From Hyunsoonleella aquatilis (GTDB lineage: Bacteria; Bacteroidota; Bacteroidia; Flavobacteriales; Flavobacteriaceae), in contig NZ_JACNMF010000001.1 in NCBI RefSeq assembly GCF_014270105.1, positions 682,001 to 746,000 of the forward strand: DNA of 64,000 nucleotides. Direction: 5' to 3'. Made by a program: the position numbers and the translations under genes. Below are positions 1,507-12,766 of this stretch, in pieces (position 1 is the stretch's first letter; every line of letters starts with the position of its first letter). The notes beneath the pieces are model-generated. The model was given only the letters and a program-made list of their open reading frames with translations. It had not been told where the DNA came from and searched no databases.

Positions 1507-2514
1507 ATGAAGCTTCTTCGAAAAATATTGTTCCCAATTGTACCGGTTTATTTTATAGTAACATGGTTTCGCAACAAACTTTACGATTGGGGCATAAAAT
1601 CATCCACTTCTTTTGATTTCCCTGTTATCTGTGTGGGGAATTTAAGCGTTGGCGGTACCGGAAAAACACCGATGATAGAATATTTAATTCGTCTTTTAAA
1701 AGATGAAAATAGTTTGTCAACTTTAAGCCGGGGTTACAAAAGAAAGACGAAAGGATTTCAGTTGGCCGATGAAAATGCTACTGCACAGACCATTGGAGAT
1801 GAGCCTTATCAACTTTATCATAAATTTAGAAGTGAAATACAGGTTGCTGTGGATGGTAATCGCGTGAACGGAATTCACCAATTGCGAAATTTAGAAGATA
1901 TCCCAAATTTAATTTTGCTCGATGACGCTTTCCAGCATCGAAAAGTAAAGGCAGGATTATACATTTTACTAACCACTTTTGACAATCCCTATTTTAAGGA
2001 TATCGTTTTGCCCACGGGGGATTTAAGAGAGCCAAGAGGGGGAGCCCAAAGAGCTGACATCATAGTTGTCACTAAATGTCCGCCGAAATTAAGCGAGGTT
2101 GAAAAATCACAATTTGTAAAACGAATCAAGCCAAAAGAAGGACAGTCCGTTTTTTTCAGTTCGATAGGGTATGCCGATGAGGTGCTTTCCGAAAGATCAA
2201 AAAAGAAATTAACAGAATTGGATAGTTTTACCTTGGTAACTGGCATCGCCAATGCTATGCCCCTTGTAGATCACTTAAAACGAAAAGGATTAAGTTTTGA
2301 GCATTTGAATTTTAAGGATCATCACGGATTTACTGAAAAGGACATTGCTTTGCTGGAAAAAAAATCCATGATTTTGACCACCGAAAAAGACTTTATGAGA
2401 TTAAGGCAATATCCATCTCTATTGGATAAAATGTACTATTTGCCTATTTCTGTTTCAATAGAAAGGGATACAGACTTTAATGCTAGGATAAGGTCCTTTG
2501 TAAGTGCCAATTAG
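1507..2514 (+). CDS. lpxK: tetraacyldisaccharide 4'-kinase
   Basis: LpxK phosphorylates the 4' position of the lipid A disaccharide precursor at the inner membrane, the sixth step of the Raetz pathway. The 335-residue protein has an N-terminal membrane segment (about residues 6-20), a P-loop GNLSVGGTGKTP (about 44-55), a LLDDAFQHRKV motif matching the family's DDGFQH signature, and a late LTTEKDFMRL motif, all characteristic of LpxK. Length is typical. Its stop codon overlaps the stop of the convergent histidine kinase gene by 4 nt (TTAG), so the two transcripts must run into each other. Confidence 0.95.
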   Translation: MKLLRKILFPIVPVYFIVTWFRNKLYDWGIKSSTSFDFPVICVGNLSVGGTGKTPMIEYLIRLLKDENSLSTLSRGYKRKTKGFQLADENATAQTIGDEPYQLYHKFRSEIQVAVDGNRVNGIHQLRNLEDIPNLILLDDAFQHRKVKAGLYILLTTFDNPYFKDIVLPTGDLREPRGGAQRADIIVVTKCPPKLSEVEKSQFVKRIKPKEGQSVFFSSIGYADEVLSERSKKKLTELDSFTLVTGIANAMPLVDHLKRKGLSFEHLNFKDHHGFTEKDIALLEKKSMILTTEKDFMRLRQYPSLLDKMYYLPISVSIERDTDFNARIRSFVSAN

Positions 2515-4751
2515 GCTGTTGCATTATTTTTCTTGGACAGTGCATTGAAAAGTTTTTTCTCGAACTCTTCCTGTTTGAACGGTTTTGGGATAATGTCGGT
2601 AAAGCCAGCTTCTTCAAACTCGTGCATTTTGTCTTCAATAGTAACCGCTGTTAATGCAAATATGGTCAGCTCTTTATCAAACGTGCGTATAATTTTGGTA
2701 GCTTCAATACCACTAATGCCTGGCATGTGGATGTCCATCAAAATAATATCATACTTGTTAGCTTTTACCATATCCACAGCCCCTTCTCCATTATCCACAA
2801 TTTCGCAAAACAAATCCATTTTGTTGAGGATTTTTTTGGTAATCATCTGGTTGATTTTATTGTCCTCAACCACAAGGATTTTTACGCTGCTGAGGTCTAG
2901 ATTGGCTGGTTTGACATCTAATTTTTTCACCTTTTTGTTGGAAGCTATTTCTGAGGCTTCATTATACTCTAAAGGAATTTCAAAGAAAAAGGTGGTGCCT
3001 TTTCCTAATTCACTTTGCATATAAATATTACCTTTTAAAATATCGATCAATCCTTTCACGATCGATAGTCCAAGGCCAGTACCTCCATATTTTCGGTTAA
3101 TTTGGATAGAACCTTGAGAAAAGCTTTCAAACATATTGTCCTGCTTCTCTTTTGTGATACCGATGCCGTTGTCTTCCACTTCAAAACGTAGCGTGTAATT
3201 GTTGTTTTCCTCACCAATTTTATATACTCGAATCCAAATATCCCCATCTTTGGTAAACTTGATGGAGTTTCCGATAAGGTTGATTAGGATTTGTGAAATC
3301 TTCAATTGGTCTGCAATGAAGTTTTCGGGCAAATCCTTGTCGTATTCAAAATGAATGGTGATGTTGTTGTCCAAAGCCTGATTGTTCAGTGCAAGGATAA
3401 TATTGTTGATTTTCTTTTTAAGGTTGAAGGGTTCTGGTTCAATTTCAACCTTATTGGCTTCAATTTTATTGATTTGAAGTATATCGTTAATAAACGTCAA
3501 TAAGTAATCCCCTGAGAATTTCAACGATTTTAAATGTTGGATCTGCTCTGGTTTGGGGTCTTCGTCCAATAACATGTTGCTCAGGCCCGTTACCGCATAC
3601 AGTGGTGTACGGAGCTCGTGGGTAACTGTAGATAGAAAGTTGGCTTTTGTTTTTGAGGCTAATTCAGCTTTTTCTTTAGCAATAATTAGCTCGTTGTTTT
3701 TCTTGTGGAGCATATTATTGGTTTTAAGTCTGATATTATTATTCTTGTAGAGTGATAGGGTGAGTAGCGATAGAATGGTAATCAAAGCCACACTTAATAT
3801 AGAAATTAGCGTGCTTAAATCATTCTTGCTATTGGCTTCGTCAAGTTCAGCCTTTTGTCTTTTGTTATGTTCTATTTGATCATTGATCAAAAATTGAATG
3901 CGTTTTTCAGGGGATAAATTGGCTTTTTTCACGGCGCGTAAAGAGTCGGAAAGGGTAACGTGCTTTTTCAAGTAGTCATTTGCCAATTGATGGTTTTGGG
4001 TGCTTTCGTAAATCGTGCTTAAAACCAAGTATCCTTCGTTGGCGGTGCTGTTATAGCCGTTTGTTTTGGCAATATCCAAGCCTTCCTTTGTAAAACCCAG
4101 AGCTTTGGCGGGATCGCTTAAGGCATGATATACCTTCCCGTGATAAATCAAGGCACTACTAAGGATATCATTGAATTCTTCCTTTCTTGAGAGCGCTACG
4201 GCTTGCTCAATCAATTCTCTTGATTTTCGGAAATTTTTAAGTTCCAGATATGCATTTCCCTCTGCAAGAAGGGTTTCGGCCAATTCTTTTTTGAGTTCTT
4301 CTTCTTGGAATTTTGACTTGGCCGCCCTGTAGGAGTCCAATGCCTGATATGTGTTTTTCTTGGACATATAAACGTCCCCAAATGTTTTAAACGAACGCCC
4401 CAAATTTTTATTATCGTTGGTGATGCGTTGCATTTCAACAGCTTTATTAAGTGCCTGGATGGCATCTTCTTCTTCCTCTATAATAAGGTGTAAACGACCT
4501 TTGATGGAATAAATTAAACCAATACTTTTTTTCAGGTTAGCATCTTGAGCTAGTTCCAAAGCTTCATCCAAAGTTTTTTGAGCTTCGAAATATTTGAAAT
4601 TGGCAATATCCTTTTGAGATTGCTCTACTCGATAGTCGATGTTATTCTGTATGATTTCAGGGTCATCCTCAATAGAATTTTGAGACGATAAGCTGAAGGA
4701 CACAAGCATTAAAACAATGCATATGCTTATATATTGCTTTATTTGGGACAT
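2511..4751 (-). CDS. TPR-containing hybrid sensor histidine kinase
   Basis: A 746-residue hybrid kinase. In order: signal peptide (1-22), periplasmic TPR-like helical repeats (about 40-275), one membrane segment (about 313-335), a HisKA domain with phospho-acceptor His378 in the THELRTPL motif, an HATPase domain with N box (NLIGNSIKF, about 490-498), G1 (DNGIGI, 527-532) and G2 (GTGLGL, 556-561), and a C-terminal receiver domain with the ILVVEDN acidic pocket and phospho-acceptor Asp672 in LMDIHMPG. No response regulator with an output domain lies next to it, so the downstream partner is unknown. A TATATTTG element lies 21 nt upstream. It is convergent with lpxK, with overlapping stop codons. 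Confidence 0.93.
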   Translation of the reverse strand: MSQIKQYISICIVLMLVSFSLSSQNSIEDDPEIIQNNIDYRVEQSQKDIANFKYFEAQKTLDEALELAQDANLKKSIGLIYSIKGRLHLIIEEEEDAIQALNKAVEMQRITNDNKNLGRSFKTFGDVYMSKKNTYQALDSYRAAKSKFQEEELKKELAETLLAEGNAYLELKNFRKSRELIEQAVALSRKEEFNDILSSALIYHGKVYHALSDPAKALGFTKEGLDIAKTNGYNSTANEGYLVLSTIYESTQNHQLANDYLKKHVTLSDSLRAVKKANLSPEKRIQFLINDQIEHNKRQKAELDEANSKNDLSTLISILSVALITILSLLTLSLYKNNNIRLKTNNMLHKKNNELIIAKEKAELASKTKANFLSTVTHELRTPLYAVTGLSNMLLDEDPKPEQIQHLKSLKFSGDYLLTFINDILQINKIEANKVEIEPEPFNLKKKINNIILALNNQALDNNITIHFEYDKDLPENFIADQLKISQILINLIGNSIKFTKDGDIWIRVYKIGEENNNYTLRFEVEDNGIGITKEKQDNMFESFSQGSIQINRKYGGTGLGLSIVKGLIDILKGNIYMQSELGKGTTFFFEIPLEYNEASEIASNKKVKKLDVKPANLDLSSVKILVVEDNKINQMITKKILNKMDLFCEIVDNGEGAVDMVKANKYDIILMDIHMPGISGIEATKIIRTFDKELTIFALTAVTIEDKMHEFEEAGFTDIIPKPFKQEEFEKKLFNALSKKNNATA

Positions 4752-5760: not shown

Positions 5761-7005
5761 TTAAAGAGTTGTGAGGTACCATACGCTGAATCCAATAAGG
5801 AAAAGGATACCAAGCCAACTCAATACGTGCAGATTTCTGGAAGGATGCCATTGTTTGGGTGTGTGCTTGCTCGAAATGAGTCGATAATTGACGATGGCAT
5901 AAAAGGGAGCCGTGATAAAGGACAAAATAGTAGCGATTTTTATGAGCAACCCCATTTCAGAAGCCAAAAATAAAAAGATACAAACCGTTCCAATGCACAA
6001 TAGCACGATCCAAAACAGGTATCCAAATTTAAAGGGCCTTTTGAGCAATAATTCCGTTGTTCTATCCATGGACCTTGGAGAGGCATCCAATGTGGTCAAT
6101 GTTGTACTGAACATCGTTGTAAAAGCCGCTAAGCCAATAATAATGTAGGCCCAGTTCCCCAGGCTAGTAGTATACATATCTATCAACTGGCCTGCAAATA
6201 CCCCTGCGGAATTACTAAACGTCTCCCCGCTACCATACATCACCAAAGCTCCCAAAAGGACAAAGCCGATGCCAAGAAAAATAGTGCTGAAATAACCCAT
6301 ATTGAAATCGAACAAGGCTTTTTTAGTTGAAAAGGAATTATGGTCTTTTTTCTTTTCTATGGCCCAAAGGGAATGCCATATGGAAATGTCCAAAGGTGCT
6401 GGCATCCAGCCCATAAAGGCAATTAAAAAGGTAATTTCCAAACTGTTTTCGGGCAATACTTGGGTCAGTGAAAGTGGAGTGGTATTGTTGAACAATGCCA
6501 TAGCGACAGCAACAACGGTGCTTATGGAAAGTGTAATGATGATAACTTTCATCAAGTTATCCAGCAATTTATATTTTCCAAGTATCAAAAGTAAAAGACA
6601 AATTAAAAGGATAATTATAGACCATATTTGAACACTTGAAATTGCATGACTGCCAAAAGAAATGGGTTCAAAATCAATAAACAATGAAGAAGCAATCCCC
6701 GCCGTTACAATGGTCACCGCCATCTGAATCACAAACATGGTGCCTAAGGTTAGGATGTAATAGGCTATTAAAACCCCTTTGCCTAATTTTTTGTAACCTT
6801 CAAGCAAGCTTTCCCCGGTGGCCGCCGCATATCTTGGGCCATATTGAAAAAAAGGATATTTAAAGAGCGTTACCAAAACTAATGCCCATATCAACCCCAA
6901 TCCAAAATCGGCTCCTGCCCTTGTGGATTGTACCAAATGAGACACGCCAATGGCCGCTCCCGCAAATAATAATCCGGGTCCAAGGGCTTTTAGTTTAGTA
7001 ATCAA
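5761..7005 (-). CDS. Nramp-family divalent metal transporter
   Basis: A 414-residue, about 11-helix membrane protein. The N-terminus (LGPGLLFAGAAIGVSHLVQSTRAGADFG, split here by description) carries the family's first-helix region; in this subgroup the canonical DPGN motif of MntH is replaced by an AAIGVSH-type sequence, as is common for the large Bacteroidota Nramp-related clade. Metal specificity therefore cannot be assumed to be manganese. The only plausible start is TTG at 7003-7005; there is no ATG nearby. A TACATTTG element at 7049-7056 supports a transcript starting just upstream. The gene is the last on this strand before the peptide-export cassette and is probably independent of it. 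Confidence 0.85.
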   Translation of the reverse strand: MITKLKALGPGLLFAGAAIGVSHLVQSTRAGADFGLGLIWALVLVTLFKYPFFQYGPRYAAATGESLLEGYKKLGKGVLIAYYILTLGTMFVIQMAVTIVTAGIASSLFIDFEPISFGSHAISSVQIWSIIILLICLLLLILGKYKLLDNLMKVIIITLSISTVVAVAMALFNNTTPLSLTQVLPENSLEITFLIAFMGWMPAPLDISIWHSLWAIEKKKDHNSFSTKKALFDFNMGYFSTIFLGIGFVLLGALVMYGSGETFSNSAGVFAGQLIDMYTTSLGNWAYIIIGLAAFTTMFSTTLTTLDASPRSMDRTTELLLKRPFKFGYLFWIVLLCIGTVCIFLFLASEMGLLIKIATILSFITAPFYAIVNYRLISSKHTPKQWHPSRNLHVLSWLGILFLIGFSVWYLTTL

Positions 7006-7048
7006 AAATAGAAGCTTTTTTAATTCTATGTCTTTCCCTTAATTTACT

Positions 7049-7056
7049 CAAATGTA
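7049..7056 (-). promoter_or_regulatory. -7 promoter element TACATTTG of the Nramp-like gene
   Basis: Minus-strand TACATTTG matches TAnnTTTG and lies 43 nt upstream of the TTG start, which supports the downstream start choice. Confidence 0.45.
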
Positions 7057-7112
7057 AATGGTTAATATAATAATATTTTAAAACTTTAGAGACTTCTTTT
7101 TCAAAGGTTTTT

Positions 7113-7141
7113 TTAATGTAAATAAAGCGAAAACAAAAAAT
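7113..7141 (-). repeat. Partial copy of the hlyD upstream region
   Basis: About 29 bp around 7113-7141 match, with a few changes, the DNA directly upstream of the hlyD-like gene at 11193-11222 (shared core AATGnAAATAAAGCGAnAACAA). Here no exporter gene follows, so it looks like a leftover from duplication of the peptide module together with its downstream flank. Confidence 0.5.
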
Positions 7142-7184
7142 AGCAAGTAATAACTTACCGCGTTCAATGATATAAACCATAAAC

Positions 7185-7223
7185 GTCTGACTTTAGTAAA
7201 TTTAATTACTAAAAAAGTCAGAC
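7185..7223 (-). terminator. 3' hairpin of peptide module 1
   Basis: Inverted repeat with a 10-bp outer stem (GTCTGACTTT / AAAGTCAGAC), a small A-rich bulge and a 5-bp inner stem (AGTAA / TTACT), 50 nt after the peptide stop codon. There is no uridine tail on the peptide strand, so it may be a processing or stability structure and not a plain terminator. The same hairpin is kept almost base for base in copy 2. Confidence 0.55.
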
Positions 7224-7273
7224 ATTTAAAGCTTTATTCTTATGATTAAGAAGTGCGTGTGTCTATTGACTCA

Positions 7274-7432
7274 CTAGCCTATCCATATACTCATACTAAG
7301 TTCATTAATCCACGAATGACTACTAGGATCCGTCATTACTTCCCAATAAGTATCCCAAAGAGACTTACCACCAGATGTTTCGATTAATTCCTCAGCTTGC
7401 ATTTCCTGAACATTTAATTTTTGTAAATTCAT
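7274..7432 (-). CDS. Double-glycine leader peptide precursor 1 (bacteriocin-like)
   Basis: A 52-residue precursor. I start it at the ATG at 7430-7432 because homology to the second peptide as a protein begins there and because the equivalent upstream frame in copy 2 has an in-frame TAA. The leader (residues 1-22) ends in SGG and has the C39-exporter recognition spacing, with Met at -12, Glu at -8 and Leu at -7 relative to the Gly-Gly cleavage site. The predicted 30-residue core begins KSLWDTYWEVMTDPSSHSW, has four Trp, no Cys, and net charge about -3. It lies downstream of, and on the same strand as, a C39 ABC exporter and HlyD gene. Function (bacteriocin or signal) is not known; the acidic core argues against a standard cationic bacteriocin. 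Confidence 0.75.
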   Translation of the reverse strand: MNLQKLNVQEMQAEELIETSGGKSLWDTYWEVMTDPSSHSWINELSMSIWIG

Positions 7433-7595
7433 AAAATTTGAAATTTTTAAGGCACCCAGTATAAGTGCCAGGTTAAACAATAATATCTTGACCGAATATA
7501 CATAAAATATTTTGAAAGAATATACGTAATCCTTTTTTGGACGAGATATCTTAACAAAAATTCTCACTTCTTATATAACGCAAAATCTAATATAG

Positions 7596-7847
7596 ATCGG
7601 CATACTCTGATATGGGATCTATGGTACGATTTCATTAAATGACTTACATAGATATGTTTAAGCTCTTTGGATAATCCTACTAAAAACGTCAATAACTCAC
7701 GACAAAACCTTCAGGTAAAAAATTAATGGTTTTTTAGATGCCACAACATGCTTTTAACTTTTGAGAAAAAAAACCTTTATATTGACTTAATAAGAGCCTT
7801 TTAGTAGGGCACTAATTTTTATATGCTTAAAACAATTCAAGTTTGGT
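7596..7847. other. Spacer between peptide 1 and exporter, no gene seen
   Basis: About 250 bp of AT-rich DNA between the end of the duplicated block and the exporter stop codon. I see no open frame with coding character on either strand and no strong hairpin. It may contain the promoter of peptide 1. Confidence 0.5.
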
Positions 7848-10007
7848 TTAAACCAAGCTTTGTTTATTCCAAAGTTCAAAATACTTCCCTTCTTTGGATA
7901 GTAGATTATTATGATTTCCATGCTCTACAATTGTTCCATTTTCCATAACCAAAATAGTATCTGTATTTGCTATAGTGCTTAATCTATGTGCAATTACGAT
8001 AATTGTTTTGCCATGTGATTTGAAATCTTCAATAACTCGTTTTACAATAGTTTCAGCATGCGTATCGAGAGCAGAGGTTGCTTCGTCCATTAATAATATT
8101 TCTGGATTTTTATATAAGGCTCTTGCAATGGAGATACGTTGTTTTTGCCCTCCAGATAGCATCGCTCCATTTTCTCCTATTTGAGTTTCAAAGCCATTGG
8201 GTAATTTTTCCACAAATTTAGTGATATCCAGTTTGTTGGATAATTCGATAATGCGCTTCATATCAGGAAAATTTTCCCCTAATGCAATATTTTCTATAAT
8301 CGTACCAGAAAATAAATTAAGCTGTTGGGGTATAACTCCAATAAGCTGTCTTAAACTTTTGTAATGAATATGCTTTAAATCGTAATCTCCAATATATATT
8401 TTACCTTCTTTAATAGGGTATAAATTTTGAAGTAATGCTATAAGTGTTGTTTTTCCACAACCACTTTCTCCAACAATTGCTGTTGTTTGTCCTTTTTTAA
8501 TGGCAACATTAAAATTGTTAAAAACCTCTGTTCTTGAACCATATCTAAATGACACATTTTCAAAAACAATATCTCCAAGATTTTCTTTGATAAGGTTGAT
8601 TTTATTCTCCGTTTCCTCACGTTCTAAATCCATAATTTCGAATAACCTGTCGGCCGCAATCAATGCATTTTGAACAGTTTTATTCATCCCAACCAAAGAG
8701 GTAACAGGAGATGTAAAATATCCAATAAGGGCATAAAATGAAAACAATTCACCTGTGGTAATCTCATTATCCAACACATAGCCAGAACCTATCCAAAGTA
8801 AAATAACAGTAAAAATTGATGCCAAAAACTGTGTTGAAGTTCCAGAGAAGATACCATTTAGTCCAGATTTATAAGTAGTAAATAATAGTTTTACAAATCG
8901 GTTTTCAGTTTTAATATTCGAAAATTCTTCTATACCAAACTCTTTAACAGTTCTTACGTGCGTAATGCTTTCCACCAGTTGTGTCTGAAGTTCTGCTGTG
9001 TTTTCCATGAGTTTACGTTCCACTTTTTTGTTAAATCGATTCATTAAATAATAAACGAAGATATAAAACGGAATAACCAATAAAATTACCAATGCCAATT
9101 TCCAGTAGTACGTAAACATTAGAGCAAACGCGAACACCACTATAAAAATATTTACCAGCATATCTATGGCTACGTTGTTTATAAAAGCACGAATTTTTAC
9201 TGCATCATTTATTCTTGAGGTAATTTCACCTATCTGCATGGTATCAAAAAAGCGTTGTGGTAACTGGAGCAAATGTTTGTAGTATCCCAAAATTAGTTTC
9301 GCATCTATCAACTGTCCTGTTTTAAGGACAAAAACGCTCTTTTTGCAGCCAATATAAGCCTGTAGTAAAATAACAGCAACCATAACGATACTTAACAGGT
9401 TTAGTAAATTTCGGTTTGCACCAACCAATACATAATCTGTTATTTTTTGAACATAAATAGACATGGCAAGACCAAGAATTGTAAAAACTATAGCTCCAAA
9501 AAGTGCTTGTATTAAAACGGTTTTATGAGGTTGTATTAAATCCCAAAAGCGTCTAAAGGCACTGGTTTTTTCGTTAACGTTTTTAAAATTATCATTTTTG
9601 GCGAATAATATTAAAACTCCTGTCCATGTTTTTTTAAAATCCTCATTACTATAGGTAACGAGTTTTCCATTTCCAGGGTCCATAACTTGGATGCTCTTTT
9701 TAGTTACTTTATAAATAACCACAAAATGTTGCAATTGTTTACCGACAACCACATGCGCAATAGCGGGTAAAGGTATTTTTGGTATTGAGTCTAAACCGCC
9801 TTTTACTCCTTTGGCCTTAAAACCCATTTTTTCTGCAGCTTCAATAATACCCAAAACATTTGTACCTCGTTTATCGGTACTAGCAAATTGCCGTATTCTA
9901 GCAATAGGTAAATTAATGCCAAAATGATTACCGATAGATGCTAAACACGCTGCTCCGCAATCTTTAATGTCATGTTGTTTTATTTTTATACTTGGCATTT
10001 TATACAT
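7848..10007 (-). CDS. Peptidase C39-containing ABC transporter (PCAT)
   Basis: A 719-residue peptide exporter that cleaves double-glycine leaders and pumps out the mature peptide. N-terminal C39 peptidase (about 1-130): oxyanion Gln11, catalytic Cys17 in DCGAAC, His94 in QHFVVIYK, Asp110 in VMDPGNGK, so the protease looks active. Membrane domain of six helices (about 155-440). ATPase domain: Walker A GESGCGKT (513-520), signature LSGGQ (617-621), Walker B LLMDE (638-642), H-loop His674. Start could be Met1 or Met4; both precede the C39 fold. It follows the HlyD gene by about 50 nt and sits between two GG-leader peptide genes, which are its obvious substrates. Confidence 0.96.
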   Translation of the reverse strand: MYKMPSIKIKQHDIKDCGAACLASIGNHFGINLPIARIRQFASTDKRGTNVLGIIEAAEKMGFKAKGVKGGLDSIPKIPLPAIAHVVVGKQLQHFVVIYKVTKKSIQVMDPGNGKLVTYSNEDFKKTWTGVLILFAKNDNFKNVNEKTSAFRRFWDLIQPHKTVLIQALFGAIVFTILGLAMSIYVQKITDYVLVGANRNLLNLLSIVMVAVILLQAYIGCKKSVFVLKTGQLIDAKLILGYYKHLLQLPQRFFDTMQIGEITSRINDAVKIRAFINNVAIDMLVNIFIVVFAFALMFTYYWKLALVILLVIPFYIFVYYLMNRFNKKVERKLMENTAELQTQLVESITHVRTVKEFGIEEFSNIKTENRFVKLLFTTYKSGLNGIFSGTSTQFLASIFTVILLWIGSGYVLDNEITTGELFSFYALIGYFTSPVTSLVGMNKTVQNALIAADRLFEIMDLEREETENKINLIKENLGDIVFENVSFRYGSRTEVFNNFNVAIKKGQTTAIVGESGCGKTTLIALLQNLYPIKEGKIYIGDYDLKHIHYKSLRQLIGVIPQQLNLFSGTIIENIALGENFPDMKRIIELSNKLDITKFVEKLPNGFETQIGENGAMLSGGQKQRISIARALYKNPEILLMDEATSALDTHAETIVKRVIEDFKSHGKTIIVIAHRLSTIANTDTILVMENGTIVEHGNHNNLLSKEGKYFELWNKQSLV

Positions 10008-10056
10008 TTAGAGTAGCGAATAACAATTTTTGAGTCCAGAGCTTTCATATAGCCTA

Positions 10057-11190
10057 CTAATCAAGGATTTTAGGGTTAAACCAATCATCTACCTTATCAA
10101 ATAGTAATTCATATAAACTTCTGCGTGTTATAAAATAGTGCGTGGTTAATGTCATACCTTTTGAAATATTGGTTTTATAACCATTTTTAAGTGTTAACTG
10201 TTTTGAGTTTAAGCTAGAGCGTACTTTAAAAAATGCGGAATTGTCTTGTATGGTTATATTTTTATCTATGTCTATGACCTTTCCCTCTAGCATTCCCCAT
10301 TGGTTATAGTTAAAGGCATCCAGTTGAAATTTTACATCCTGACCAATTTTTAACAAACCAATGTCTGTTGGAGAAACTGTGTTTTCTACGATTAAATTAC
10401 TGTTTGGAGAAATTGTTGCAATAATTTGTGAAGCGTTAACAAATGAGCCTACTTGCAAGCCTAACACATTTTCTAAAGTTCCAGATATAGGTGCAGTAAG
10501 CACGTAGTTGTTGCTCTCTGATATAAATTGCTCTTTTTTGCTCATAAGATTTCTTATTTGGGTTTCTATCTCACGTTTTTTAGATTGCCATTGTGCCCGT
10601 TGTTGTTTAATAAAGCTATTAAGCGCTTCCTTGGCGAATTTTAAACCGTACAAATAGGTTTCGTATTCTGATTGGGCAACAATTTGTTTTTTAAATAGCT
10701 GTTCGTAACGATTAAAGTTGATTTTTGCTTGTTGTACTTTGCTTACCAACTCTTGTTTCTGAAATAAATAGCGTTCATAGTCATCAATTATGATGTTATC
10801 CTTTATTAGTTTTGGTTTATTATTGATTAAATTTATGTAATCTATAAACTTTATTTCTGCTTGTTTTAACAAGGAATCATTAAGTGTTTTCTGTGCTTTT
10901 ATATTATCTGTGGTAATGATTAATAAGGTGTCTCCCTTGTAAACCTGTTGGTTATTTTTTAAACGAACTTGGGTTAGCTTACCACTAACAATACTAATTA
11001 ATGGGCTATTGTCTTGTTTTGCACGTATAATACCACGACTTTGTTTGCTAATATCTACTTTAATAATAGGCAAACATGCTAAAACACCAATAAGCGTTAT
11101 AACTACCAGTAAATAAATAGAAATGCTTTTGGTTGTGTTTTTAGCAATAAGGTTTTCGAGGTTGTGTATTGGATCCGAACTGAAGTTCAT
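10057..11190 (-). CDS. HlyD-family membrane fusion (adaptor) protein
   Basis: A 377-residue periplasmic adaptor: cytoplasmic N-terminus, one membrane helix (about 22-41), lipoyl-like half (about 62-95, IVSGKLTQVRLKNNQQVYKG), a long helical hairpin (about 97-225) and a second lipoyl half (about 231-255, TAPISGTLENVLGLQVGSFV), then beta-barrel domain. It would link the C39 exporter to an outer-membrane channel such as TolC, which is not encoded here. It is first in the exporter transcript, 278 nt downstream of peptide gene 2. Confidence 0.93.
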   Translation of the reverse strand: MNFSSDPIHNLENLIAKNTTKSISIYLLVVITLIGVLACLPIIKVDISKQSRGIIRAKQDNSPLISIVSGKLTQVRLKNNQQVYKGDTLLIITTDNIKAQKTLNDSLLKQAEIKFIDYINLINNKPKLIKDNIIIDDYERYLFQKQELVSKVQQAKINFNRYEQLFKKQIVAQSEYETYLYGLKFAKEALNSFIKQQRAQWQSKKREIETQIRNLMSKKEQFISESNNYVLTAPISGTLENVLGLQVGSFVNASQIIATISPNSNLIVENTVSPTDIGLLKIGQDVKFQLDAFNYNQWGMLEGKVIDIDKNITIQDNSAFFKVRSSLNSKQLTLKNGYKTNISKGMTLTTHYFITRRSLYELLFDKVDDWFNPKILD

Positions 11191-11384
11191 AGTTTTTTAA
11201 TGCAAATAAAGCGATAACAAGAAAAACTTTTTAGCTTTTATTTTTTAGCAATTTGATGTTGCATCTTAATATTATTAGATTTGTTTTAGTGTAATTTACT
11301 TAAAACTTATAACTGCGGTATCAGGTTGTATTAATTAAGAGAAATGATTAAAACAACATGCGCTCACTGATATAAACCATAAAC

Positions 11385-11424
11385 GTCTGACTTTAGTAAA
11401 TTTAATTACTTAAAAAAGTCAGAC
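11385..11424 (-). terminator. 3' hairpin of peptide module 2
   Basis: Same structure as in module 1: 10-bp stem GTCTGACTTT / AAAGTCAGAC with inner AGTAA / TTACT, 45 nt after the peptide stop and about 195 nt before hlyD. If it terminates partially it would set a high peptide-to-exporter ratio. No uridine tract follows on the minus strand. Confidence 0.55.
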
Positions 11425-11468
11425 ATTAGAAGCTTAATTCTTATGCTTAAGAAGTACGCGTATATATA

Positions 11469-11639
11469 CTATAAGTCGAGTATAACAAGTGGACTCAAAG
11501 CAAGGATCCAAGCATGACTGTTAGGATCTGTCATTACACCCCAATAACTCTCCCAAAGTGACGGTTGTTCAGTACCACCAGATATTTCCATTAATTCCTC
11601 AGTTTGCATTTCTTGCAAATTTAATTTTTGTAAATTCAT
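11469..11639 (-). CDS. Double-glycine leader peptide precursor 2 (bacteriocin-like)
   Basis: A 56-residue precursor starting at ATG 11637-11639; the frame upstream is closed by a TAA shortly before the repeats, so longer starts are unlikely. The leader is nearly identical to that of peptide 1 and ends ISGG, with Met at -12, Glu at -8 and Leu at -7. The predicted 34-residue core begins TEQPSLWESYWGVMTDPNSH and ends in a hydrophobic tail (LSPLVILDL). It has three Trp, no Cys and net charge about -4. It shares the pattern SLWxxYWxVMTDPxSHxW with peptide 1. Located directly upstream of the HlyD/C39 exporter genes on the same strand. Confidence 0.75.
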   Translation of the reverse strand: MNLQKLNLQEMQTEELMEISGGTEQPSLWESYWGVMTDPNSHAWILALSPLVILDL

Positions 11640-11802
11640 AAAATTTAAAATTTTTACGGCACCCAATATAAGTACCAAGTTATATAATATTATTTTGAAC
11701 GAATATACATAAAACATATTGAAAGAATATACGTAATGTTATTTTTAAGCGAAATATAATAGAAAAAATCTCACTTCTTTTATGACGCAAGATCTAACAT
11801 AG

Positions 11803-12220
11803 GTTTTTGAACCAATATTTATCTTTTTCGAAAAATGATATTTCATCAAAACTAGGGAAACTTTTATATTCAACGAATAAAATAATTAAGGCTTCATATA
11901 GCTAAATGATCCAAAGAAATATACTAGTAAGATTAATGCCTGATAAACTTAAATGCCAGAGGCCAAGCTTATTTATCTCTGTCATATTCATGACTACTAA
12001 ATCTGTACGAAACCATATTTTGAAAAAGAAATCAAGTTGTATAAAAGCTATGAACAGAATACAAACTTCGTTTGAAATTATAAACAATAGGGATGAACCC
12101 GATTATTAGTTTGCAAACTAAATATAAAAGAGAATTGTAGGTAAACAATCAATCACTACTAAGGAAATATTAATGTTGAAGCTATTTTATACTCTTAGTG
12201 GAAGCTAAGTTTTAAAGTAT
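11803..12220. other. Spacer with no supported gene
   Basis: About 420 bp. Two overlapping opposite frames of about 60 codons exist but both lack ATG or Bacteroidota-like start context and code for low-complexity residues; I do not accept them. The stretch separates the peptide cassette from the sigma factor gene and probably holds the upstream regulatory region of peptide 2. Confidence 0.5.
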
Positions 12221-12766
12221 CTATTTGTCTCTGATTACTTCAGTAAGTAATTTTTTCGCCCTAAGCAATTTCACCTTTACATTATTTATGGGCTCATCCA
12301 GTTCTTCCGAAATTTCCTTATAGCTTAACTCTTGAAAATAGCGCAGATTGATTACTTTCTGATAGTGCGGCTTTAGCTTCTTGATATCTCGCAGCAATTT
12401 GGCAAGATGTTGTTCCGTAATCAATTTATCTTCGGCGGATGGTGATTCGTCTAATATTTGAAGAACGGTTTTATCGTCTTTGGACATCACGTGTTTAATG
12501 GAATTTTTTTCCTTCCGCAATAAATCAATATGGATATTCTTTGAAATGGTAATCAGCCAGGTCTTGAAGGTATAATTTTCGTCAAAAGTTTCTATCCTGT
12601 CAAATGCCCGGGAAAAGGTTTGGATGGTTACGTCCTCGGCATCGTTTTCATTATGGATGCGCTTCAACTGAAACCCATAAACATGGTCCCAGTACAAATC
12701 CAGCAAGTAATTAAAGGCCTTTTGGTCGTTCTTTTTGGCGCGAGAGATCGCTTCGTTTATTTCCAA
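12221..12766 (-). CDS. RNA polymerase sigma-70 family (ECF) factor
   Basis: ECF sigma factor of about 181 residues. Region 2 is seen in DVTIQTFSRAFDRIETF and TFKTWLITISKNIHIDLLRK, and region 4 in YFQELSYKEISEELDEPINNVKVKLLRAKKLL. I choose TTG at 12764-12766 as start because the conserved protein begins there (LEINEAISRAKKNDQKAF) and because this TTG overlaps the stop region of the upstream glycosyltransferase gene, which suggests translational coupling. An ATG at 12850 in the same frame would add 28 residues without sigma similarity. No anti-sigma gene is adjacent. Confidence 0.85.
   Translation of the reverse strand: MEINEAISRAKKNDQKAFNYLLDLYWDHVYGFQLKRIHNENDAEDVTIQTFSRAFDRIETFDENYTFKTWLITISKNIHIDLLRKEKNSIKHVMSKDDKTVLQILDESPSAEDKLITEQHLAKLLRDIKKLKPHYQKVINLRYFQELSYKEISEELDEPINNVKVKLLRAKKLLTEVIRDK

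Follow-up and report, generated by a model that had tools for sequence, protein, structure and literature searches.

A horizontally acquired double-glycine peptide export cassette, probably bacteriocin-like, in Hyunsoonleella aquatilis

Introduction

What does a flavobacterium release through a double-glycine (GG) peptide exporter that is accompanied by two small precursors and an adaptor? This question is raised by a four-gene cassette in a 64,000-nt stretch of the Hyunsoonleella aquatilis genome (the window; coordinates refer to it unless a locus is named). The initial annotation described the cassette as a complete, self-contained secretion system and considered that its product may be a signal. 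Its gene content and the secretion reading stood up to our analysis. The self-containment did not, and it had been missed that the genes lie in an insertion of ~5.2 kb.

Predictions of class II bacteriocin precursors across Bacteroidota already exist, according to the available part of a preview article (PMC12648078). A survey covering 2,680 genomes of Flavobacteriaceae speaks of RiPP-like clusters, and the word bacteriocin is absent from its main text as far as that is available (PMC10734526). Among the matches listed from the open-licence literature, no title concerns the core family described below or a tested flavobacterial GG-peptide system with a C39 peptidase-containing ABC exporter (PCAT).

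Results

Gene content of the cassette

All four genes are encoded on the minus strand (Table 1), as initially described. They are read in the order precursor A, HlyD, PCAT and precursor B, so that the precursors flank the adaptor and the exporter. HlyD and PCAT are the only ORFs of at least 150 aa in the insertion. None of the ORFs of the insertion codes for a TolC-type outer-membrane partner, whereas two plasmid relatives have one (see below). Because the cassette lacks this gene, "complete, self-contained" is too strong a term. A modification enzyme was said to be missing nearby, and indeed none is encoded in the insertion or among the four flanking genes that were put to Pfam. One of the latter codes for a radical SAM protein with a weak match to lipoyl synthase, which we read as LipA.

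Table 1. Features of the inserted segment in window coordinates
Feature	Position	Strand	Basis or remark
Inserted segment, ~5.2 kb, between the ECF sigma factor gene and the Nramp-type transporter gene	7006-12222	-	empty sites in congeners
Two 17-bp direct repeats, 24-bp spacing, upstream of precursor A	11695-11735	-	candidate regulator site
Precursor A, 56 aa (22-aa GG leader, 34-aa core, net charge -4)	11469-11639	-	ORF list
Hairpin just 3' of precursor A, 19 pairs counted	11381-11428	-	fold z-score -5.0
HlyD-family periplasmic adaptor, 377 aa	10057-11190	-	PF13437 and TIGR01843 matches
C39 peptidase-containing ABC exporter (PCAT), 719 aa	7848-10007	-	PF03412, PF00664, PF00005; TIGR01193
Two 17-bp direct repeats, 24-bp spacing, upstream of precursor B	7488-7528	-	candidate regulator site
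Precursor B, 52 aa (22-aa GG leader, 30-aa core, net charge -3)	7274-7432	-	ORF list
Hairpin just 3' of precursor B, copy of the hairpin after A	7181-7227	-	fold z-score -7.4
Copy of the pre-hlyD stretch, 3' of precursor B	7100-7156	-	91% over 57 nt to L016 6752-6808

Three small ORFs were considered as immunity genes and rejected, having no supporting matches among the loci compared. The one at 7787-7921 matches only the PCAT end of related loci, in another frame, and those at 11902-12087 and 11906-12109 have no match among the related loci compared. The spacer DNA at 7433-7847 and 11700-12221 yields short matches only to these loci. A 61-aa ORF at 6995-7180 was rejected as a gene, its sole good match being the pre-hlyD spacer.

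The exporter and its adaptor

The exporter scores 535.8 bits against the NCBIfam model TIGR01193 (cut-off 523.85) and aligns over its whole length with the solved PCAT1 (4ry2; E=1.5e-160). Gln11, Cys17, His94 and Asp110 and the ABC motifs are kept in this alignment, in agreement with the initial report of an intact Cys17, His94 and Asp110; we take the corresponding PCAT1 residues to be those that form the catalytic triad. The numbering is valid if Met1 is the start; the exporter of the relative L016 (see below) starts at the residue matching Met4. HlyD matches PF13437 (E=1.2e-15) and also PF16576, and its match to TIGR01843 (E=2.6e-33) is below the cut-off of that model. It adjoins the ABC exporter, which is the arrangement expected of type I secretion.

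Leaders and cores of the two precursors

The leaders (MNLQKLN...GG) had been called near-identical. They agree at 18 of 22 residues and 60 of 66 nucleotides, and both end in Gly-Gly. According to the available part of PMC6363468, GG leaders are recognized by L(-12), E(-8), L(-7) and GG. With any hydrophobic residue accepted at -12, both window leaders have the full set (M-12, E-8, L-7, GG), carrying Met where the rule has Leu. The core lengths given initially (34 residues for A, 30 for B) were confirmed.

In their aligned part, the cores are identical at 53 of 75 nucleotides and 16 of 25 residues, and they share SLWxxYWxVMTDPxSHxW. Their net charge (-4 for A, -3 for B) compares with a median of 0 in 128 cores of relatives, seven of which are at -3 or below, two of these being from L016. 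Trp makes up a fraction of 0.088 in A and 0.133 in B, compared with 0.03 (median) and 0.10 (95th percentile) in the relatives. GxxxG, present in 52% of the relatives' cores, is absent from both, as is Cys. This is a rare and odd core family: acidic, Trp-rich and devoid of GxxxG.

Neither precursor passes the cut-off of a curated family in Pfam or NCBIfam; precursor A has weak matches to PF14406, PF10439 and TIGR03949, all below cut-off. A structure model of precursor B shows three helices (mean pLDDT 69, pTM 0.30) and has no match in the PDB (Foldseek). Given these results, we take from the model only that the released cores are probably helical.

Precursors as modules

A good alignment of precursors A and B reaches from ~170 nt before the start codon through the 3' hairpin. 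The hairpin between precursor A and hlyD is a probable terminator or attenuator. It folds far more stably than its shuffles in both window copies (Table 1) and in the two copies in L016, which have fold z-scores of -8.2 and -6.1. Covariation amounts to one compensatory pair in four sequences, a level reached by 127 of 500 shuffles. Elsewhere in the genome, the hairpin sequence has one site only, with three mismatches, and a reversed-pattern control also has one. An Rfam scan of 6900-12400 gave no match. One L016 copy presumably resembles attC core sites; an attC-like site was nevertheless rejected, as the copies in the window depart from such a site and the stem is an ordinary inverted repeat.

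The direct repeats that precede both precursors have no further copy on that strand of the window. The pair is not kept in L016, where only the TTCTTTCAA part is present. A further feature lies beyond the hairpin of B: a copy of a stretch that, in L016 (6752-6808), is found at the start of hlyD. Because of this position, precursor B probably arose by copying a module that ran from A to the start of hlyD.

An insertion between two neighboring genes

The genes for the ECF sigma factor and the Nramp-type transporter abut or overlap in 10 of 11 same-genus genomes and are 5.2 kb apart in the window. In the eleventh genome, no sigma gene turned up in the 8 kb examined. Homology to the congeners' flanks stops at 6992-7004 and 12224-12248 (among the rows listed), which places the right edge to within ~25 bp. 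The GC content is 0.308 inside the insertion and 0.382 outside; GC3 is 0.25-0.30 for the four cassette genes versus 0.35-0.45 for 11 further genes of the window that were measured. Because the flanking genes abut in nearly all congeners and GC3 is lower in the cassette, the latter is, to judge from synteny and composition, a horizontally acquired insertion of ~5.2 kb.

Both flanking genes differ at the junctions. The Nramp start (7003-7005) is a TTG, whereas nine of the ten empty sites have an ATG at the same place and the tenth has it one codon further in. The end of the ECF sigma protein differs from that of most congeners, having been altered by the insertion. The window Nramp protein is 69-83% identical to those of the congeners, and the sigma factor is 72-86% identical to that of the ten congeners having the gene. 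An exporter at E <= 1e-150 is present in only one of the 11 congeners, at 60% identity.

The compared end stretches of the insertion contain no direct repeats of at least 9 nt, only a 10-nt AT-rich inverted match, and inspection of its ORF list by eye revealed no transposase or integrase. Precursor relatives were absent from viral contigs, and matches to precursor A were absent from plasmids. Phage records match the insertion partially at 60-80% identity, the best covering 17% of it, and the plasmid relatives of the exporter are below 60% identity.

The same cassette in Cellulophaga

Locus L016, from an uncultured-Cellulophaga assembly, codes for a PCAT and an HlyD that are identical to those of the window at 668 of 716 (93%) and 342 of 377 residues, respectively. 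Its two precursors belong to the core family of A and B, and both precede hlyD. The identities of PCAT and HlyD compare with 69-83% for Nramp and 72-86% for the sigma factor between the window and its own congeners. The genes flanking L016 are neighbors in 17 of 17 congeners (from overlapping to ~0.9 kb apart), and none of these has an HlyD or PCAT at the site in the 5 kb examined. In L016, they are separated by 6.2 kb, which hold the cassette and a gene for a VWA-domain protein (L016 10444-11610) on the opposite strand. The comparison thus indicates that a single cassette has entered two genera, at a different site in each. The GC content of the L016 insertion (0.302) is near that of its own flanks (0.319), unlike the window insertion. 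The GC values thus suggest a low-GC donor of the Cellulophaga sort for the window insertion.

The core family was searched with a model built from four precursor sequences. Among 397 family genomes, only that of the window has a full-length match. Four further ones match at E <= 0.01: three of these are GG peptides with other cores, and one matches in the leader only. There is one match among 395 class genomes and one among the 18 genomes of the genus of L016, where a second match (E = 0.0099) contains stops. The core family is rare, being found in two genomes among those searched.

Related exporter loci and their immunity-type genes

Among 400 pattern matches in the genome collection, 376 exporter relatives were confirmed. 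The best 80 were kept, so the counts lean to close relatives; all 80 are Bacteroidota by record. HlyD is encoded directly upstream of the exporter in 76 of these 80 loci. Precursors were searched from 6 kb upstream to 3 kb downstream of the exporter, with a leader pattern that was fixed before the relatives were read. A same-strand GG precursor was found in 66 of the 80 loci, and at least two in 44. In 10 of the 14 loci without one, the available stretch ends no more than 2.2 kb from the exporter start. The pattern matched 135 times in the 1.25 Mb around the 80 exporters (128 on the exporter's strand, 7 on the other), compared with two matches in 147 kb of control DNA, each of them within a longer gene, and two in 1.25 Mb of Markov sequence. 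Co-occurrence of GG precursors with this exporter type thus exceeds chance in these relatives. Together with the exporter anatomy and the leaders, it makes secretion of two GG substrates a well-supported prediction.

Sequence of at least 4.5 kb upstream is available for 65 of the best 80 loci. A candidate immunity gene is present nearby on the exporter's strand in 41 of them: 27 have the CAAX-protease type, 13 the ABC type and 8 the zincin type, some loci having more than one. The other 24, L016 included, have none of the three types. The same searches gave no match in 237 kb of control DNA (window and empty-site loci). The CAAX-protease model was built from 11 neighbor sequences passing Rce1-like (a narrower first model found 6 loci), and the ABC and zincin counts are each based on one query locus. 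When 20 hand-chosen neighbor proteins, one an HlyD, were put to Pfam, 11 passed Rce1-like, one DUF3267 and one ABC_tran. Of ten precursors of relatives tried in NCBIfam, one passes a model (TIGR03949). Plasmid pBACSA02 (Phocaeicola salanitronis) codes for two GG peptides, a CAAX protease, HlyD, PCAT and TolC; plasmid pAT7 (Aureibacter tunicatorum) codes for TolC, HlyD, PCAT and a small GG peptide.

In the window and in L016, no immunity gene was recognized or found conserved beside the precursors; four Rce1-like genes are located elsewhere in the window's genome. The initial statement on the missing immunity gene thus holds for these two loci. As a pointer to a signal, it does not. Because 41 of 65 relatives have a candidate, and because bacteroidetocin producers appear to be devoid of immunity proteins (see below), this lack does not favor a signal over a toxin.

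Three further observations concern the neighborhoods of related exporters. Just upstream of the precursors, several Flavobacterium loci encode a ~106-aa protein family (L031 5729-6049), which occurs in 24 of the 80 loci; one member gave no match in Pfam. L041 (3731-5449) has an AraC-type HTH protein with TPR repeats beside the precursors. With relatives in 14 of the 80 loci, L041 included, it is a possible regulator of such loci and is absent from the window insertion. L040 (4881-6836) encodes, near GG precursors, a 652-aa protein that joins DUF6734 to a C39 peptidase domain.

Discussion

A probable function of the cassette

We consider it probable that the cassette is a class II bacteriocin-like one, pared down to a minimum and acquired horizontally, which exports a peptide pair. 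The GG leaders of both paralogous precursors would be recognized at the C39 domain of the exporter, and the precursors would be cut after Gly-Gly. PCAT and HlyD would then export the 34- and 30-residue cores in concert with a TolC-type partner encoded elsewhere in the genome. Export with this cleavage is the direct reading of the cassette anatomy. The released acidic, Trp-rich, probably helical peptides would most likely act against competing, probably related, bacteria; this antibacterial role is suggested by the company that related loci keep, because relatives often carry candidate immunity genes, which are absent from control DNA. The identity of the exporter, the fit to the leader rule, the co-occurrence with GG precursors and HlyD, and the gene set of pBACSA02 point in the same direction, as does the patchy, inserted distribution, which is usual for bacteriocins. 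Counted against a bacteriocin are the missing adjacent immunity gene here and in L016, the 24 relatives without the three immunity types, the failure to pass any bacteriocin model, and the cores themselves, which are acidic, without GxxxG and alike.

A bolder proposal, possible in our view and yet on the doubtful side, is an undescribed peptide class with acidic, Trp-rich LWxxYWxVMTDPxSHxW cores, perhaps forming a helix-turn-helix. As a minimal export cassette free of immunity genes, it would pass from one flavobacterial genus to another, its precursors would multiply as leader-core-hairpin modules, and its target would be one that requires no immunity gene in the producer.

The main rival is a secreted peptide signal, sensed by neighbors or by the producer, with the repeats as the site of a responding regulator and hence autoinduction. 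The paralogous precursors with their similar cores are consistent with this, as is the lack of an immunity gene in the window and L016. The same direct repeats precede A and B and occur nowhere else on that window strand, and yet the pair is not kept in L016. Regulatory proteins can be pointed to: the AraC-type protein found in 14 of the best 80 of 376 related loci and, by eye, a hybrid-histidine-kinase-like ORF at 2511-4751. The latter is outside the insertion, which has no sensor or regulator because HlyD and PCAT are its sole larger ORFs. The leaders of the L016 precursors resemble BlpC very weakly, far below cut-off. As many relatives have immunity-type genes and a minimal cassette would be a poor vehicle for a signal that leaves its receptor behind, we regard a signal as unlikely.

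We give still less credence to a strict two-peptide class IIb bacteriocin, with A and B active only together. It is true that 44 of the best 80 of 376 related loci have at least two precursors, and that pBACSA02 has an unlike pair. The two peptides of a class IIb pair are unlike each other, and GxxxG in the cores is a criterion of the class. A and B, however, are paralogous, lack GxxxG and reside in separate modules, each with its own hairpin. Very improbable, too, is a decayed, silent import (a bacteriocin locus out of use after loss of its immunity gene and outer-membrane partner), for although some relatives have these genes and a duplication scar is present, all four frames are open, the catalytic and ABC motifs are kept, and L016 has kept the same immunity-free content at another site.

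The locus clearly exemplifies a small peptide-export system that has moved between genera of Bacteroidota by clean insertion, and the empty site can be recognized in ten congeners. Should the cores kill, the phylum, in which few examples are characterized, would gain an antibacterial pair that comes without immunity; should they signal, they would be a GG-peptide signal in Bacteroidota. The neighbor survey (GG precursors, HlyD, PCAT, and CAAX-protease, ABC and zincin genes) is a testable map of many uncharacterized peptides.

Comparison with known systems

With PCAT1-type transporters (TIGR01193; solved as 4ry2, 7t54 and others), the window exporter shares full-length C39, membrane and ATPase domains and the Gln/Cys/His/Asp residues. 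It differs in that it adjoins HlyD, as in Gram-negative type I secretion, and in that its substrates match no curated family above cut-off. With class IIb bacteriocins of the lactobin A/cerein 7B family (TIGR03949), there is weak leader similarity only. The two precursors score 17.8 and 14.8 bits, below the cut-off of 21.5 bits, and have neither GxxxG nor the unlike pair.

Bacteroidetocins, as described in the available part of PMC6671954, also combine a GG-leader peptide with a PCAT in Bacteroidetes and have no obvious immunity protein; their producers seem to lack immunity proteins and inhibit themselves in overlay assays. Bacteroidetocin leaders are, however, 15-16 aa long, the two described peptides have four Cys, and a thiol oxidoreductase and a 5-TM protein belong to the system. 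In contrast, Cys is missing from the window cores, and neither of these proteins is encoded in the insertion. The same genome has a second C39 exporter (G000:C1:576.1-580.1 kb; L129, 6118-10053), which is 30% identical to that of the window and has its C39 domain split between two frames. Its neighbors are a 64-aa GG peptide with two Cys, a thioredoxin-like protein and a 210-aa protein that is weakly Yip1-like. This make-up is close to the four-gene one described for bacteroidetocins in the same part of PMC6671954.

Among Bacteroidota, GG-peptide/HlyD/PCAT loci with CAAX-protease neighbors (pBACSA02; L038 and L057 from Flavobacterium) share with the window the GG leaders, HlyD followed by PCAT, and two small precursors. 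They differ in having immunity-type genes and, in pBACSA02, also TolC. The cores of the Bacteroidota relatives have a median charge of 0 and about half of them contain GxxxG, whereas the window cores are acidic and without it. The combination of exporter, HlyD and GG precursor is of a kind common in Bacteroidota, to which the window copy adds a mobile member with an unusual core.
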